Source of the DNA: Candidatus Hydrogenedentota bacterium | Lineage (GTDB): Bacteria; Hydrogenedentota; Hydrogenedentia; Hydrogenedentales; JAEUWI01 | Reading direction: 5' to 3' | NCBI GenBank assembly: GCA_019637335.1 | Contig: JAHBVV010000041.1 | Location: 1-43,011 of the forward strand | Length of the DNA: 43,011 nt | Shown: one piece after another, positions 3,593-42,902 of the stretch | How the letters are laid out: every line of letters starts with the position of its first letter | How positions within the stretch are numbered: the stretch's first letter is position 1 | Translations under genes and position numbers: made by a program | Notes under the pieces: model-generated | What the model was told of the DNA's origin: nothing | What the model saw: only the letters and a program-made list of their open reading frames with translations | The model's database searches: none

Positions 3593-3905
3593 TCCGGATC
3601 ACCACGAAGGGAGCAGAGCAGCCTTCGGCCGCAACTGAAGAAATGGTCACCACGGAGGGCACGAAGGGCGCGAAGAGAAACGGAGACGGATTCTAACCGC
3701 AGAGAACGCAGAGAGCGCATAGGGTGATTTTTGTGGGCGGATGGATTGGGTTGTTGAAAGGGACGCTTTCTTGACCGCGAATGGACGCGAGTGGACACGA
3801 ATGCATTGGGAGCAGCCACTGGCCGCGATCGGGATTTGTGACCACGGATTACACTGATGACACGGATAGAAAATGATTCCGGTCGTTGGGGTGTGCTGGC
3901 GCTTG
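3593..3905. repeat. Long intergenic repeat, family 2, copy 1
   Basis: This fills most of the 443-bp gap between the two glycan-active genes. Recognisable words are GATCACCACGAAGG, AACCGCAGAGAACGCAGAG, GAGCGCATAGGGTGATTT, GATGGATTGGGT, CACGAATGCATTGGGAGCAG and CACTGATGACACGGATAG. The same words in the same order occur at about 17865-18130 and 42290-42580. Copy 1 is the most diverged. No gene is supported in it. Confidence 0.85.
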
Positions 3906-3973
3906 CGTGTGATTTCCGAGGTTAATTGTATGGTTTTTTTGGAGGGGTTGATTGGGCGGGGTGGCTTTGTGGG

Positions 3974-9951: not shown

Positions 9952-11271
9952 ATGCCCCGCCTCCGAATGCACATCCTGTACGGTCTTGTTATCGCCGTAG
10001 CAGCCACGCTGTTCCCCGCCGCGCATGCCGCGCCGCCGAATATTGTGCTTATCATGGCGGACGACCTGGGCTATGAGACCATCGGCGCGAACGGCAGCGC
10101 GCATTACAAGACGCCGCGGCTGGACGCGCTGGCGAGGGAGGGGATGCGGTTTACGCAGGCGCACAGCCAGCCGTTGTGCACGCCGACGCGGGTTAAGCTC
10201 ATGACGGGGAAGTACAACTTCCGGAATTACACGGCGTTTGGCTATCTGAATCCGGAGGAGCGGACTTTTGCGCATGCGCTTAAGGCGGCGGGGTACGCGA
10301 CGGCGATCGCGGGGAAGTGGCAGTTGGGGCATGACAACACGCTGCCCGCGCATTTCGGGTTTGACGAGCACTGCCTCTGGCAGCTGACCTATGAGAAGAA
10401 GGACGGCGAGCGTTTTGCGAATCCGCTGCTGGAGCGCAACGGGGAGACGCTCCCGCGGGATCCCGATGCGTATGGGCCGGACGTGGTGCTGGAATTCGTG
10501 ATGGACTTCGTCACGCGGAAGAAGGACGGGCCTTTTTTCGTTTACTTCCCGATGCTGCTGACGCATGACCCGTTTGTACCGACGCCGGACACGGCGGGCT
10601 GGGCGGGGGACCGCTATGCGAAGGACAATGCGTATTTCGCGGAGATGGTGACATACATGGACAAGAAAGTCGGGCGCCTTGCGGACCATGTGTCGGCGCT
10701 GGGCCTGGCCGAGAACACGCTGTTCATCTTCACGGCGGACAACGGGACAAGCCGCGCCATTGCCTCGCCCTTCCAGGGGCGCACCGTGCAGGGGGGGAAG
10801 GGCGCGATGACGGACGCGGGCACGCACGTGCCGCTGATCGCGTGGTGGCCGGGGATGATCGCGCCGGGGACGGTCTACGAGGGGCTGATCGGTTTTGAGG
10901 ATTTCTTTCCGACCCTGCTGGAGGCGGCGGAGCGTCCCGAGCTTGCGGCGGGGCTCGACGGGCGTAGCTTTCTGCCGCTGCTTCGGGGCGATTCCTACGC
11001 GCCGAAGCCGTGGCTCTACATGCACTATGATCCGCGCTGGGGCAACCGGAACCGCGACCGGGGCCGCTTCGCGCGGACGGTTCGGCACAAGCTCTACGCG
11101 GATGGCCGCCTTATCGATGTTGCGCAGGACCCGGACGAGCGGTCGCCCCTGGCCGGGGAGGCCATCACGCCGGACGTGGCGGAAGTGCGGGCCGTGCTGC
11201 AGGGCGTGCTGGACGATATGGAGCGGCAGGGCAGCGTGATGAGCGCGGAAGGCGCGCCGAAGGACGAGTAG
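9952..11271 (+). CDS. Secreted formylglycine-dependent sulfatase
   Basis: 439 residues with a signal peptide (about residues 1-27, ending AAHAA), and AAGGA seven bases before the ATG. The sulfatase core is complete. Asp37-Asp38 (IMADDLGYETIG) bind calcium. Cys76-T-P-T-Arg80 is the C-X-P-X-R signature whose Cys is converted to formylglycine. AGKWQLG supplies the active-site Lys, and TADNGTS the later metal-binding Asp-Asn pair. It hydrolyses a sulfate ester, most likely on a carbohydrate given the gene neighbours. Activity needs a formylglycine-generating enzyme or anSME, and neither is encoded here. Specificity cannot be read from the sequence. The next gene, a sigma factor, is 282 bp away on the same strand. 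Confidence 0.93.
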   Translation: MPRLRMHILYGLVIAVAATLFPAAHAAPPNIVLIMADDLGYETIGANGSAHYKTPRLDALAREGMRFTQAHSQPLCTPTRVKLMTGKYNFRNYTAFGYLNPEERTFAHALKAAGYATAIAGKWQLGHDNTLPAHFGFDEHCLWQLTYEKKDGERFANPLLERNGETLPRDPDAYGPDVVLEFVMDFVTRKKDGPFFVYFPMLLTHDPFVPTPDTAGWAGDRYAKDNAYFAEMVTYMDKKVGRLADHVSALGLAENTLFIFTADNGTSRAIASPFQGRTVQGGKGAMTDAGTHVPLIAWWPGMIAPGTVYEGLIGFEDFFPTLLEAAERPELAAGLDGRSFLPLLRGDSYAPKPWLYMHYDPRWGNRNRDRGRFARTVRHKLYADGRLIDVAQDPDERSPLAGEAITPDVAEVRAVLQGVLDDMERQGSVMSAEGAPKDE

Positions 11272-11553: not shown

Positions 11554-14500
11554 ATGAATGCGAACACGCCCGATATCGCCCTCTTACAGGTCTGGCAACA
11601 CCGTCGTGATTCCGACGCTTTCCAGCTCATTGTTGCCCGCCATGCGTCGCTGGTGTTCAATACCTGCCGGCATATCATAAAGAACGACGCGGATGCCGCC
11701 GATATCAGTCAAGAGTGCTTTCTGAGCCTCGCCACGACACCCCCTCAGATCGAGCGTTCCCTAGCGGGGTGGCTGCACCGGCTGGCGACACACCGTTCCC
11801 TGAACCACCTGAAACAGGAACAGCGCCGCCGCCAGCGCGAAATTCGCTACGCCGAGGGACTTCCCGAATGGTCTGCCGGAGAACGGGACGATTTGCTTGA
11901 CGCTGTGGATCTGGCGATCGACGCGCTGCCCGACGAGGTGCGCATCCCTGTTATCGAGCATTACCTCCGGCAGCAGAGTCACCAGCAAATTGCGGATGCA
12001 CTGAAAATTCCGCGTCGTACCGTTACCAATCGAATTACACGGGGGGTATCGCTGCTGCGCGAAGAACTGAGAAATCGAGGAATCATCACCCCGGCGGTGG
12101 GACTGGCTGCGTTTCTGGAGACCGCACTCGCCCCCGCCGCGGTTCCGGACGTGATGTGCGCTTCATTAGGGAAGTTCGCTATGGCTGGGGCGGGGTACGG
12201 GACGACGTTGGGGGCGTGGAGCGGGGCTGCGGCAGTTCTCATGAGTAAGGGGGGGATTGCAACACTCGCCGCAGGCGTGGTGCTGATTAGCGCCGCGTGG
12301 GTACTCCTGCGCGGGACGGAACCACCTCCCGGGGGATCGGGGCCTCCGCCGACTCCGGTAGAAATGGAGGCTGCGGAAAATGCCGCTTCGGAGTCCGCGG
12401 TTCAGGCGCCCGAAACAGCCGTCGCTGCTATTCCAACGGGGGTCGCGGACGTGACCGTAATGGCTGAAGGACCGGGAACCATTTTTGGGCGGGTACTCTC
12501 TCGCGAGGGTGAACCGGTTGCGGCAACGGTCCGCGCCATACCGGCCCAGTACATGGAGTCCAAGCCGGAACCGGTACTCCTGGATCTCGCGCCGCGTAAT
12601 CTGGAAGTGGATACCAGCGGCCGTTTCACCTTCAAACTCCTCCCACTCGATACCTACATCATTTTGGCCGTCGCGGGCGATCTGGGTGCGTATGGGGAGG
12701 CCCGCCTTTCGGATGCATACCCGGTCAATGAAATGGAGTTAATCCTCGAGCCGGGTGGCGCCATCAGCGGGCGCGTCACCGACACAGACGGGGCGCCGAT
12801 CCCGGGCGCGCGCGTTTATCCGGTGGCGCGCGACCGGTACCGAGTCGGTGAGAGTGAAATGCGTGGACTCTCGGTTGTTACCGGCAGCGGCGGGGCGTTT
12901 CTACTGCCTTTTCTGCCTGCCGAGCAGTGGCAACTTCTGGCGGCGGCAAGTGGCTGCCAACCGTCGTTGACCGAAGACCTTACTGTGGGTGCGAAATCCG
13001 TCGAGATAGTGCTGAAGCCCGGGCTGACCCTGGCCGGCCGTGTGGTGGACGCAGTCTCGGACGTGGGGTTAGAGGGGATGACGCTTTCCGCAACACAGGA
13101 AGGGATACCTGTCCGCGCACGTGCTCGGACCGAAGCCGACGGCAGGTTTATGTTCGACGGCATCGCACCGGGCGATGTAAGTGTGACGGGCTACCACGCC
13201 ACCCATGTATTGAAGGAGCACCCGGTGTCCCTGTCGGTACCGGAGGAAGGGGGCGAGCCAGTGCGCCTGGAAGCGACCCCGGGCGGAAAAGTACGGGGGC
13301 GGATCCTACTGGCGAATGGCGAAGGCATCGAGGGTGTTCGAATTGGTCTCCGCAGCATGGGGCATTCGCAGTTGGCGATCACCGGTGCCGGGGGGCGTTA
13401 CGATCTTGACAATGTTCCGGGCGGAAACTACGCACTGGGTACGTTGGCAGTAACGCCATTTGACCGGCGGGAGATTCATGTTTCACCGGGCGAGACCATC
13501 GAGGCGCCCGACTGGGGAATCACCTCAGGTATCGTTCGGGGCGTGGTAGTGGACCAGTCAGGCAGACCCGTGTCCCGTGCAACGGTCTGGCTCAGCAATG
13601 CCGCGCCAGTAACCGGCGTGTGGACCGATTCAAAAGGCGAATTTCAGGCGGTGGAACCTGGTGTCCGGGGAATCCTCACCGTGACGGCGTCCAAGTTCGA
13701 CCGTTCGAGTCGTCTGGTCAAGATCGACCTCGACCAGGATCCCGCGCCGTACGTGAAGCTCACACTTGACCAATCACGCGGCCTGGTCGCCGGACAGGTC
13801 GTTGACGAACGCGGTGCACCCGTGCGCGCGCGGCTTGCCATCTCCACCTACACCGGAATGCACATACCCGATCACCTGATCAATCACACGCCCGGCTTCA
13901 TATCCCCATATGGAGAACCACCCATACCACCCGCGGAGGGCCAGACCAACTGGGAAATCACCATTCCCACCGACAGTGAAGGATACTTCCTCGCTTGGGT
14001 AGACACGCCGGCTGACCTGAAATTCTTTGTGTCGGCGTACACGCCGGAAAGTGTCCTCTCCAAGAAAAACCTGGTCCAGGAGTTGGCCTTGCGCGCGGGC
14101 GGAGTCAGGAAAGGGATCCGGCTGGTGTATAAGGCCGGGCCGGGCGTGTCGATCCGCGGGCGGGTGCAGGATGCCGGGGGCCATCCGTTACCCCATGTGA
14201 ATGTGACGGCGAGGATAGAGAGGAGCATGGGCGAGAGCGGCGTCGCAAACAGTGATCTGGAAGGAAATTTCGCGATCAAAGGACTGCAGGGCGACATGTT
14301 CACGGTAGTTGCACACACCAGTGAGCACCTGGCGAGTACGATCCCGGAGGTCCCGGCGGGTACCACGGACCTCGTGATTGTGCTGAACAAGTTGGCGCGC
14401 GTCACCGGCATCGTCCAGGATGCCCGAACTGGCGCGCCGCTCACGACCTTTGAGGCCGCATTCGTGTTTGAAGGCGGCGGCACGGCCTACGCCCAATTCC

Positions 14501-15524: not shown

Positions 15525-17792
15525 ATGTCGTTTGATCCCGCGCAGAATCCCGCCGAGCCCGAGGAGCCCAATCAGGAGGGGCTGTTTGACGCGCAGCTTT
15601 CGTTGCCGCTGCCGTTTGTGGGGGCTCCGGAGCCGATTACGACGGTGGTCAAGCGTAATGGGCGGGAGGAGGCGTTTGACCGGGGGAAGATCACGAATGC
15701 GATTTTCCGGGCGGCGGAGTCGATTGGCGGGGACGATCGGGGTCTGGCGGACAGCCTGGCGCGGGCGGTGACGATCTACCTGACGAAGCAGCTGGGCGGC
15801 CACGCGCCGACGGTGGACCATATTCACGACGCGGTGGAGCGGGTGCTGATTCAGATGGACCACATCCGGACGGCGTTCGCGTATGCGCGGTACCGGGATC
15901 GGCGGGCGCGTATCCGGCGGCTGCGGGAGGGGGACATGCGGCTGCTGCTGGGCGAACTGGAGGAGGCGCGCGACCGGGGGGAGGCTGTTCCGCCCGCAGG
16001 ATCCGGATTGTTTGTTCGGACGAGCGCGGAGACGCTTTCGACGTGGGACCGGGACCGGATTGTGGAGGCGCTGGTGCGGGAGACGGGGCTGGACCGGGGG
16101 ATGGCGGGTGTGATCGCGGCGGAGGTGGAGCAGCAGCTGGACGCGGCGGGGATCCAGCATTTGAGCTCGGCGCTGGTGCGGGAGTTGGTGGCGGCGCGCC
16201 TGGTGGCGCATGGCCTGCACGAGTTTCGGGACCGCCAGCAGCGGCTGGGGGCGCCGCTGTACGACTGCGAGCGGATCATCCGGGGGCTGACGGAGTCGAC
16301 GGCGCGGCGGGATCCGGTGGCGACGGATTACGTGCTTGCGGGGGCGGTGAAGAAGGAGTATGCGCTGGCGCGGGTCTATTCCGCGGCGGTGAGCGAGGCG
16401 CACCTGCAGGGCGCGCTTCATCTGCATGATCTGGAGAAAGTGGACCGGTTGCGCAGCGCGACGCTCTCGCCCGGACAGGTGGCGCGGTTTGGCGTTGGGA
16501 TGCCGGGGGCGCCGGATTTTGCGTCGCCGCCCCGGAGCGCGGTCACGTTCCTGGCGCAGTTGGCGAAGGCGACGGCGAATTTTCAGGCGCATTTTGCGGG
16601 CCCGATCGCGTGGGATTCGGTGAATTACCATCTGGCGCCGTTTGTTTATGGCTACAGCGGCGAGGAACTGGCGCAGTTTGCGCAGATGATTGTGTACGAA
16701 TTTGCGTACCGGGCGATGGCGCACGGGGGCGACGCGCCGGGTTCGGAACTGCGGCTGGACTGGATCGCGCCCGCGACGATCGCGGATCAGTTGGCCGTCA
16801 CGCCCCATGAAACGGACGAGCCGCGGCGCTACCGGGATTACGAGCATACGGCGCAGCAGCTGGCGTGGCGGATATTCGAGACCCTGCAGCAGAGCGAGGG
16901 GCTGCATGTGGCCGCGCCCGCGCTCGGGATAACGGTGGACGAGCGCTTTTTCAAGGCCCCGGGCGCCGATGCGTTTCTGGAGCAGGCGACGGGCGCGGCG
17001 GCGGCGGGTTTTCCCGTGCGGCTGCGGTTTGTGCGCGAGGCGCCGCGTCCGCTGACCGGCGCGCCGGCGTGGCAACCTTCGGAGGTGGTTTTCGGGCAGG
17101 TGGCGCTGAATCTGCCTCGCCTGGCGTGTCTCGCGGATTCGGAGGCGGCGTTCTACGAAGCGGCGGACCAGATTGTGGCGCTTTCGTGTCAGGGCCTGGC
17201 GGAACGCCGCGCGTTTCTGGAATCGATCCTTGCGCGGGGCGCGGTGGGTCCGCTTGGCTTGCTGGCTGTTCAGCACGGGGCGGCGCCGCTGATCGATCTG
17301 GAGCAGACGACGGGCCGGATCGCGCTGCATGGTCTGAACGAAGCGGTTCAGCTGCTGGGTGGCGCGCCGCTACACGCGAGTGACGATGCGTGCCAGCTGG
17401 GTGCGCGTATCGTGGAGCGGGTGGCGCAGAAGTGCGCGCTGGAGCGCCGTAAGCGTGGCTTCGCCATCGAGCTGGGGCCGGGCCTGGATTGGAACGTGTC
17501 GCATCGCTTCGCGAATCTGGACGCGCAGAGCCACCCGGAAAAAACGAAAACCGTCATAAACGTGCGCGAGGACGATAAAAGAATGCACTATACGCCGGGG
17601 GTCGGGGTGGCGGCTGGGGCCGAGATCAGTCCGTTTGACCGGGTGCGTGTGGAGGGGGAGCAGCACCAGCGCCTGGACGCCGATCGGTGGGTTGCGTTGG
17701 CGGCGCACCCTCTGGCGGTTGCGCCCGGGGCATTGGCGGATCTGGCGCGCAAGGCATATTATCAGACATTGGCGGGTGGTATTTATCTGTAA
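15525..17792 (+). CDS. Anaerobic ribonucleotide reductase (NrdD)-like protein lacking the glycyl-radical site
   Basis: 755 residues. Residues 38-132 are an ATP-cone (VVKRNGREEAFDRGKITNAI). Residues 163-252 are a second cone-like region (VRTSAETLSTWDRDRIVEAL, then RLGAPLYDCERII), as in Thermotoga-type class III reductases. The core follows: LHLHDLEKVDRL near 310, DSVNYHLAPFVYGYSGEEL near 365, GQVALNLPRLAC near 525 and IALHGLNEAVQLLG near 600. These match the NrdD fold, including the NLPR and G-x-NEA motifs. The Cys-rich catalytic stretch normally found before NLPR is replaced by RPLTGAPAWQPSE. The protein ends at AYYQTLAGGIYL, with neither the C-terminal CxxC/CxxC zinc site nor the RVxGY glycyl-radical motif. 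No nrdG activase is nearby. It is probably a non-catalytic nucleotide-binding homologue. Confidence 0.85.
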   Translation: MSFDPAQNPAEPEEPNQEGLFDAQLSLPLPFVGAPEPITTVVKRNGREEAFDRGKITNAIFRAAESIGGDDRGLADSLARAVTIYLTKQLGGHAPTVDHIHDAVERVLIQMDHIRTAFAYARYRDRRARIRRLREGDMRLLLGELEEARDRGEAVPPAGSGLFVRTSAETLSTWDRDRIVEALVRETGLDRGMAGVIAAEVEQQLDAAGIQHLSSALVRELVAARLVAHGLHEFRDRQQRLGAPLYDCERIIRGLTESTARRDPVATDYVLAGAVKKEYALARVYSAAVSEAHLQGALHLHDLEKVDRLRSATLSPGQVARFGVGMPGAPDFASPPRSAVTFLAQLAKATANFQAHFAGPIAWDSVNYHLAPFVYGYSGEELAQFAQMIVYEFAYRAMAHGGDAPGSELRLDWIAPATIADQLAVTPHETDEPRRYRDYEHTAQQLAWRIFETLQQSEGLHVAAPALGITVDERFFKAPGADAFLEQATGAAAAGFPVRLRFVREAPRPLTGAPAWQPSEVVFGQVALNLPRLACLADSEAAFYEAADQIVALSCQGLAERRAFLESILARGAVGPLGLLAVQHGAAPLIDLEQTTGRIALHGLNEAVQLLGGAPLHASDDACQLGARIVERVAQKCALERRKRGFAIELGPGLDWNVSHRFANLDAQSHPEKTKTVINVREDDKRMHYTPGVGVAAGAEISPFDRVRVEGEQHQRLDADRWVALAAHPLAVAPGALADLARKAYYQTLAGGIYL

Positions 17793-17864
17793 GCCGTCTT
17801 TTGAATCTGTTCTGATCGCGAGAAAGCTCGCCCTGAGCGTATGTTATCAGATGCTGAATCCGCA

Positions 17865-18130
17865 GGGCAGCCTTGGGCCGCAACCGAAGAAATGATCACC
17901 ACGAAGGGCGCGAAGGTCACGAAGAAAAACAGAGAATAGCTTTAACCGAAGAGAACGCAGAGAGCGCATAGGGTGATTTCTGGTACGCAGATGGATTGGG
18001 TGGATGATCGAGAGAGTGCATCCTTAACCACGAATGAACACCAATGCACACGAATGCATCGGGAGCGGCCGCAGGCGGCGATCAAGAATTGCGCCCACGG
18101 ATTGCACTGATGACACGGATAGAAAATCAG
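17865..18130. repeat. Long intergenic repeat, family 2, copy 2
   Basis: This occupies most of the gap between two convergent genes. It is very similar to 42290-42580: GATCACCACGAAGGGCGCG, GATTTCTGGTACGCAGATGG, GGATGATCGAGAGAGT, TTAACCACGAATGAACACC and GACACGGATAGAAAAT follow in the same order and spacing. A frame starting MHTNASG appears in both copies but is simply translated repeat. Confidence 0.88.
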
Positions 18131-42154: not shown

Positions 42155-42289
42155 GTTCGTATTTCCGGCGGGGCGGACGCCCGAGAGGAAAGGGGATGGC
42201 GCGGTTTTATGCCTGCGTGGGGCGAGTAAACCACGAATGCACCTGGGGCAGCGGCTGGCCGCGAACAGGATTTGTGACCACGGATGACA

Positions 42290-42580
42290 CAGCGCAGCCT
42301 CTGGCCGCAACCAAAGAAATGATCACCACGAAGGGCGCGAAGGTCACGAAGAGGAAGAGAGACGAAGCTTTGACCGCAGAGAACGCAGAGATCGCATGGG
42401 GTGATTTCTGGTACGCAGATGGATTGGGTGGATGATCGAGAGAGTACATTCTTAACCACGAATGAACACCAATGCACACGAATGCATCGGGAGCAGCCGC
42501 GGGCGGCGGTCAAGAATTATGCCCACAGATTGCACTGATGACACGGATAGAAAATGATTTCGGTCGTTGGGGTGTGCAGG
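42290..42580. repeat. Long intergenic repeat, family 2, copy 3
   Basis: Highly similar to 17865-18130 over about 250 bp, in the same orientation. Just upstream (42230-42290) is a partial second unit with CCACGAATGCACCTGGGG and GTGACCACGGATGACAC. An inverted fragment of the same family (CCGTGTCATCGGTGTAATCCG) lies at about 42699-42722. No gene is supported in the 910 bases from 42102 to the window end. Confidence 0.88.
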
Positions 42581-42902
42581 CGGCTGCGTGCTGTTTCCAA
42601 GGTGGCCTGTTCGGATTGTTCAGCATCGGAATTGTAGCGGGGTTGATATGGTGGCGGGCTGCTTCTTCTTCTTGTTTGGTCTGCGTGTCGCTTCAATCCG
42701 TGTCATCGGTGTAATCCGTGGTAAAAAGACTGCCGGTCGCGCAATTCACGGAACGGCCCCGAAATTCTCCCTGGAATTTTCGCTCCGTAACTAATTTCTA
42801 CGCCATACGGGGATGGGTTTCTTGATTGCAAGCAACACTTTAGCCGTCTGAAGTAGTCGCCCTCGTCGCACCCAACGGTGGCGGCTCTCGGTGATCGAGC
42901 AC

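Follow-up and report, generated by a model that had tools for sequence, protein, structure and literature searches.

A catalytically dead class III ribonucleotide reductase homologue in Hydrogenedentota with ATP-cones and a putative sliding clamp-binding tail

Closest described systems

The class III ribonucleotide reductases (NrdD) of Prevotella copri, Streptococcus thermophilus, T4 and Thermotoga have the overall fold, the ATP-cone and the NLPR and GLNE motifs in common with pseudo-NrdD, the Hydrogenedentota protein described here. In contrast to these enzymes, pseudo-NrdD lacks the thiyl-radical cysteine, the NxN flap, the phosphate loop, the Zn site, the glycyl-radical domain and an accompanying NrdG2, and possesses two cones and a tail with a putative clamp motif. 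The nearest catalytic relatives found are the double-ATP-cone NrdDs of WOR-3, Eisenbacteria, Stahlbacteria and other lineages (loci L127 and L139-L160). They share the cone-cone-barrel order, and many have nrdR upstream, but they keep ECCRL and RVTGY and have no tail motif.

Dead or non-reductase RNR paralogues kept for another role are known in yeast (Rnr4) and in herpesviruses (the R1 homologues UL45 and M45). These belong to class I and are eukaryotic or viral, whereas pseudo-NrdD is of class III and bacterial. Hda is an AAA+ protein. As the clamp-bound regulator of DnaA (RIDA), Hda/HdaA carries an N-terminal QLSLPL on a nucleotide-linked regulator, as does pseudo-NrdD, although apart from this peptide the two show no homology (PMC3836487). 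YfiD/GrcA, the glycyl-radical spare part for pyruvate formate-lyase (PMC8683613), is a small trans domain resembling the subunits of the split NrdDs described below and is absent from the window clade. A literature search that left most subscription journals outside its coverage yielded no paper on NrdD pseudoenzymes or on the RNR of Hydrogenedentes; within the same coverage, the titles and abstracts found described no separate glycyl-radical subunit of NrdD.

Gene and domain organization

The window, that is the whole stretch of 43,011 nucleotides that was analysed, is contig C41 of genome G000 (7.16 Mb, 96% complete). The pseudo-nrdD gene (Table 1) begins with ATG and ends with TAA without an internal stop. 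The encoded protein matched the Pfam family NRDD (PF13597, E = 1.8e-40, profile positions 14-468 of 562) and, in two stretches with 79 bits, the ATP-cone family PF03477, while its scores with the NCBIfam NrdD models were far below the cut-offs. The motifs HLHDL, APFVYG, NLPR and GLNEA are present. Pfam and the open reading frame thus bear out the sequence-only reading, which had recognized two ATP-cone regions, core NrdD motifs and an uninterrupted frame.

An AlphaFold2 model, calculated with 41 orthologues in the alignment, comprised two cone-like domains and a barrel (mean pLDDT 82.7, pTM 0.70). All top PDB matches in Foldseek were class III RNRs, the best being NrdD from S. thermophilus (9d3x, E = 2.1e-21); the TM-score against Thermotoga NrdD (4con), normalized by target length, was 0.70. 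The barrel fold is hence related to NrdD by both the PF13597 match and the predicted structure.

The window also contains a dispersed repeat, with pieces of approximately 80-94% identity at 3613-3939, 17862-18127 and 42232-42620, one of which begins just past the pseudo-nrdD gene.

Table 1 Features of the pseudo-nrdD locus and of apparent split class III reductase loci in distant relatives
Feature	Position	Strand	Evidence
Pseudo-NrdD of 755 aa, a catalytically dead homologue of class III ribonucleotide reductases	15525..17792	+	ORF, Pfam, orthologues, AF2, PDB matches
N-terminal tail, residues 1-37, predicted disordered, conserved EGxFDAQLSLPLP	15525..15635	+	AF2 pLDDT, alignment
QLSLPL (residues 24-29), putative motif for binding to DnaN, the beta sliding clamp	15594..15611	+	Hda peptide identity, conservation, shuffles
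ATP-cone 1, residues 38-132, with KRNG hairpin	15636..15920	+	PF03477; K43/R44 conservation
ATP-cone 2, residues 162-252, divergent, without KRDG hairpin	16008..16280	+	Second PF03477 stretch; AF2 cone-like elements; clade identity
RNR barrel remnant, residues 264-755, fold retained, active site gone	16314..17789	+	Foldseek; clade identity
HLHDL, triphosphate-binding HxHD motif, residues 299-303	16419..16433	+	Joint alignment
Short Pro/Ala-rich loop at the ECCRL (thiyl-radical Cys) position of catalytic relatives, residues 503-518	17031..17078	+	Alignments
NLPR motif, residues 529-532	17109..17120	+	Alignments
GLNE motif, residues 603-606 (GLNEA 603-607)	17331..17342	+	Alignments
Downstream stretch, no Zn site or glycyl-radical domain in any frame	17793..17937	+	Frame inspection; genome search
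Apparent split class III NrdD and glycyl-radical protein	L126:7893-10313 and 10325-10651		
Apparent split class III NrdD and glycyl-radical protein	L132:7869-10298 and 12745-13044		
Further apparent split class III RNR loci	L224-L229, L233, L234		

Loss of the catalytic apparatus

In a joint alignment of 41 pseudo-NrdDs from Hydrogenedentota with catalytic double-cone relatives, the RVTGY glycyl-radical motif was missing from all 41, as were the ECCRL thiyl-radical loop, the CxxC pairs of the Zn site and the EQTPAE phosphate loop. None of the variants listed for these members kept the YTNS segment or the NxN flap, the window copy having TARR at the position of NANI in the relatives. Where the relatives carry ECCRL or MCCRL, the alignment has a gap or a short Pro/Ala-rich loop, which in the window copy contains no cysteine, and neither of the two CxxC pairs that precede the radical loop in active enzymes is present. 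NLPR, GLNE and APF are retained in most members. The HxHD motif is intact in the window copy (HLHDL) and in few other members of the clade, HLHG being the commonest form. The roles assigned here to the NxN flap, HxHD, Zn site and glycine follow the work on P. copri NrdD (PMC11226230).

Judged from these alignments, pseudo-NrdD is a pseudoenzyme that has lost radical chemistry. The sequence-only reading had proposed as much from the single copy, noting a Pro/Ala-rich replacement of the cysteine loop ahead of NLPR and an end without Zn site or glycyl-radical motif; both features hold in the alignments, and no close orthologue that keeps the glycine occurs among the aligned members. The loss of the NxN flap and the phosphate loop, the drift of HxHD across the family and the conserved QLSLPL tail come in addition. 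A downstream remnant of the radical domain was considered and rejected, since none was seen in any frame past the TAA. The lack of an adjacent nrdG activase, likewise proposed before, follows from the absence of any NrdG2 (TIGR02495) match in the window genome; NrdG of the TIGR02491 type lay outside the search.

Split and degenerate NrdDs in distant relatives

Eleven distant relatives encode an NrdD with ECCRL and Zn site in which the radical glycine has been lost, either through truncation past the Zn site, through replacement of Gly with Asp (L137, L161) or at a stop codon (L133). In 10 of the 11 genomes with such a Gly-less, Cys-bearing NrdD, a separate glycyl-radical protein of approximately 93-108 amino acid residues was found, in which the N-terminal part is conserved and which carries a sequence resembling ITRVTGYF...WNKGK...ELKDR. 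At locus L132, nrdR is followed in turn by nrdD, two further open reading frames, the glycyl-radical subunit, a CxxC redoxin-like open reading frame and nrdG2. These class III reductases, which belong to other phyla, appear to be split, with their glycyl-radical subunit acting in trans.

Genome G082 (locus L135) encodes both an intact fused glycyl-radical domain and a stand-alone subunit (C214:1509-1799), a double set that possibly represents a spare-part intermediate. In the Eisenbacteria NrdD at L133:2-2551, the codon of the radical Gly has been replaced by one for Ser, followed immediately by a stop codon, behind which the rest of the radical domain remains readable; a trans glycyl-radical subunit was not found in this 1.7 Mb assembly. 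NrdD homologues without Cys and Gly, in which the Zn pairs are kept, occur in an unclassified bacterium (L182:7917-10358) and in Blastocatellia (L184:7956-10076); these are apparently separate pseudoenzymes outside the Hydrogenedentota and have no clamp tail.

The sequence-only reading had named a split enzyme as a finding that would refute it, and a search was made accordingly. The window genome yielded no glycyl-radical domain, and 20 other Hydrogenedentota genomes yielded none that was convincing. That pseudo-NrdD could be a working reductase supplied with its radical by a separate glycyl-radical protein is thus hardly credible. Split enzymes of this kind are predicted in distant relatives, but there they keep ECCRL and the Zn site, which the window clade does not, and NrdG2 is absent from the window genome as well. 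A glycyl-radical gene that had escaped assembly would still leave the catalytic cysteine missing. For the same reasons, the protein was rejected as one half of a split enzyme.

Conservation, selection and origin

Orthologues with the same losses were found in six of the seven genomes of the window's family, the other five copies being 42-62% identical to that of the window, and pseudo-NrdD occurs in nearly all of the 68 Hydrogenedentota genomes. Across many genera the reading frames are full-length and similar in length and end point, and pairs with unsaturated dS gave dN/dS values of 0.098-0.256, indicating purifying selection. Both decay of the gene and its truncation in the assembly, for which only the fast-evolving barrel could be adduced, are therefore rejected, in line with the earlier inference of a maintained frame without recent decay.

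In most comparisons the cones had a lower dN/dS than the barrel; exceptions were the pair L086/L105, with an equal value for cone 1, and the pair L092/L093, with a slightly higher value for cone 2 at saturated dS. Mean pairwise identities in pseudo-NrdDs were 57.8% for cone 1, 58.7% for cone 2 and 33.1% for the barrel, compared with 63.3%, 55.3% and 64.5% in the catalytic double-cone relatives. The cones are thus as conserved as those of the catalytic relatives and the barrel is not, which indicates that selection holds the sensor domains and is relaxed on the barrel. In multi-cone reductases, inner cones tend to drift, and most class II enzymes are cone-less (PMC9669993); unlike this published tendency, the inner cone of pseudo-NrdD shows no more drift than the outer one.

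Retention of the fold and of NLPR and GLNE would also be compatible with a nucleotide-related role apart from clamp or reductase, for example as a dNTP buffer or another barrel enzyme, with the tail binding something else. We consider this rather unlikely, because conservation is lowest in the barrel, no position is a cysteine in all aligned pseudo-NrdDs, and the alignments reveal no evident new catalytic constellation.

In a maximum likelihood tree (quick mode), all 28 sampled pseudo-NrdDs formed a single clade, set apart by a branch with an SH-aLRT of 100, with the caveat that branches are long and some long-branch joins were flagged by warnings. In 12 of 52 pseudo-NrdD loci, nrdR lies directly upstream on the same strand at a distance of 37-272 bp, as it lies directly upstream in many catalytic double-cone relatives; the copy in the window lacks an adjacent nrdR. 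From this shared gene order, the most likely ancestor of pseudo-nrdD is an nrdR-nrdD operon encoding a double-ATP-cone class III reductase. Apart from NrdR, neighbourhood clustering retrieved no more than a few family-specific genes, and no functional partner.

ATP-cones

Cone 1 retains the KRxG hairpin, with K43 present in 41 and R44 in 40 of the 41 aligned members. In NrdD of S. thermophilus, the equivalent Lys and Arg are located at the phosphates of the nucleotide (PMC12662201). Binding of ATP or dATP by cone 1 is inferred from these retained phosphate-contacting residues, and nucleotide binding by the degenerate cone 2 is doubtful. A role as nucleotide-sensing regulator, suggested in the sequence-only reading, fits the conserved cones, its function remaining an inference.

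N-terminal tail

The disordered N-terminus reads EGLFDAQLSLPLP. It is conserved at Q24 (41/41), D22 (40/41) and E18 and G19 (39/41 each), and its QLSLPL is identical to the clamp-binding hexapeptide of E. coli Hda (PMC3836487), which has also been used with E. coli DnaN as the reference for tight binding (PMC12309361). With pLDDT values below 50 at residues 1-22 and 24-33, this peptide of the QLxLPL clamp type is predicted to lie in an accessible tail.

A loose motif definition was met by all 41 aligned tails, compared with a mean of 1.25 and a maximum of 6 in 1000 shuffles, and a strict definition by 28 of the 41 (shuffle mean 0.08, maximum 2). Anchored to its position, the motif was found in 47 of 52 pseudo-NrdDs and not in the other five; a stricter unanchored pattern matched 40. 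About one third of the members have variants, such as QLSFP and QLRFD, that are less like known clamp motifs. A second motif, QxxLF, lies upstream of the main one in seven of 47 tails (shuffle mean 0.16, maximum 3), in the window copy as QEGLF. Because the tails come from related sequences and are not independent of each other, the shuffles exaggerate the significance. A stronger argument is the contrast with the catalytic relatives, since the tail motif occurs in none of 67 other NrdDs (0/24 catalytic double-cone, 0/13 radical-in-trans and outlier, and 0/30 canonical sequences).

The DinB family is known for clamp binding. In the DinB encoded by the same organism, NQHQLPLFGG is found near the C-terminus, placing QLPLF in the tail, so that the window genome appears to use such peptides. 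The assignment of the tail as a DnaN-docking peptide remains inferred, given the shortness of the motif and the lack of binding data.

Supply of dNTPs in the phylum

A survey for other reductases, advised in the sequence-only reading, revealed in the window genome no NRDD besides pseudo-NrdD and no match to PF02867 at E < 0.001. The conclusion of a reductase-free genome would have been wrong: TIGR02505 detects a class II adenosylcobalamin-dependent reductase (RTPR) at L095:4852-7035 (G000 C8), with a score of 343 bits (cut-off 340) and the sequence NPCAEQSLE, that PF02867 misses and in which Pfam finds no ATP-cone. RTPRs of Hydrogenedentota are poorly caught by PF02867, and a survey with this model alone would miscall these genomes as reductase-free. 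The dNTPs of the window organism presumably come from this cone-less class II reductase, and in some families of the phylum presumably also from canonical NrdD/NrdG.

This distribution bears on another role, that of a regulatory pseudo-subunit of RTPR whose own ATP-cones would confer dATP activity control. RTPR was present in 62 of 68 genomes, no ATP-cone was found by Pfam in the one RTPR tested, and 24 genomes with pseudo-NrdD but without canonical NrdD or NrdG2 all contain RTPR. Against it, pseudo-NrdD is present and RTPR was not found in G014 (98% complete), G061 and G064, G030 has RTPR without pseudo-NrdD, and the clamp motif is left unexplained. Although the presence and absence counts rest on draft assemblies, no single reductase looks like an obligatory partner; the role is unlikely, and the earlier suggestion of a partner modulating another reductase is weakened.

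Proposed function

With the chemistry lost, the sensing domains kept and a clamp tag in the tail, pseudo-NrdD is probably a sensor at the replication machinery and no enzyme. Its specific interpretation as a replisome-tethered sensor of ATP and dATP is given a probability of about 0.5, as clamp binding, nucleotide binding and output are all inferred without experiment. The Hda-like QLSLPL tail would dock the protein onto the DNA sliding clamp, ATP-cone 1 would take up ATP or dATP, and the barrel or dimer would serve as a conformational scaffold that relays the dATP/ATP state to the replisome. The output may, for instance, be an altered access to the clamp, or alternatively an active reductase may be held near the fork. 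It speaks against the clamp-bound sensor that conserved neighbours beyond NrdR provide no functional clue, and that in the window even NrdR is missing beside the gene.

More tentative, and in our estimate somewhat short of even odds, is the wider proposal of a phylum-wide clamp-bound dNTP sensor that arose from a dead anaerobic RNR and, by means of an Hda-like peptide and a dATP/ATP switch, couples the dNTP pool to replication. How dNTP supply is sensed at the bacterial replication fork is an open question, and a dead reductase with sensor domains and a clamp tag would render a direct link from sensor to replisome testable. If true, pseudo-NrdD would represent a new class of replication regulator. 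RNR biology would also gain a bacterial pseudoenzyme clade for which catalytic relatives with a fused radical domain and relatives with the apparent radical domain in trans are both sampled in living lineages.
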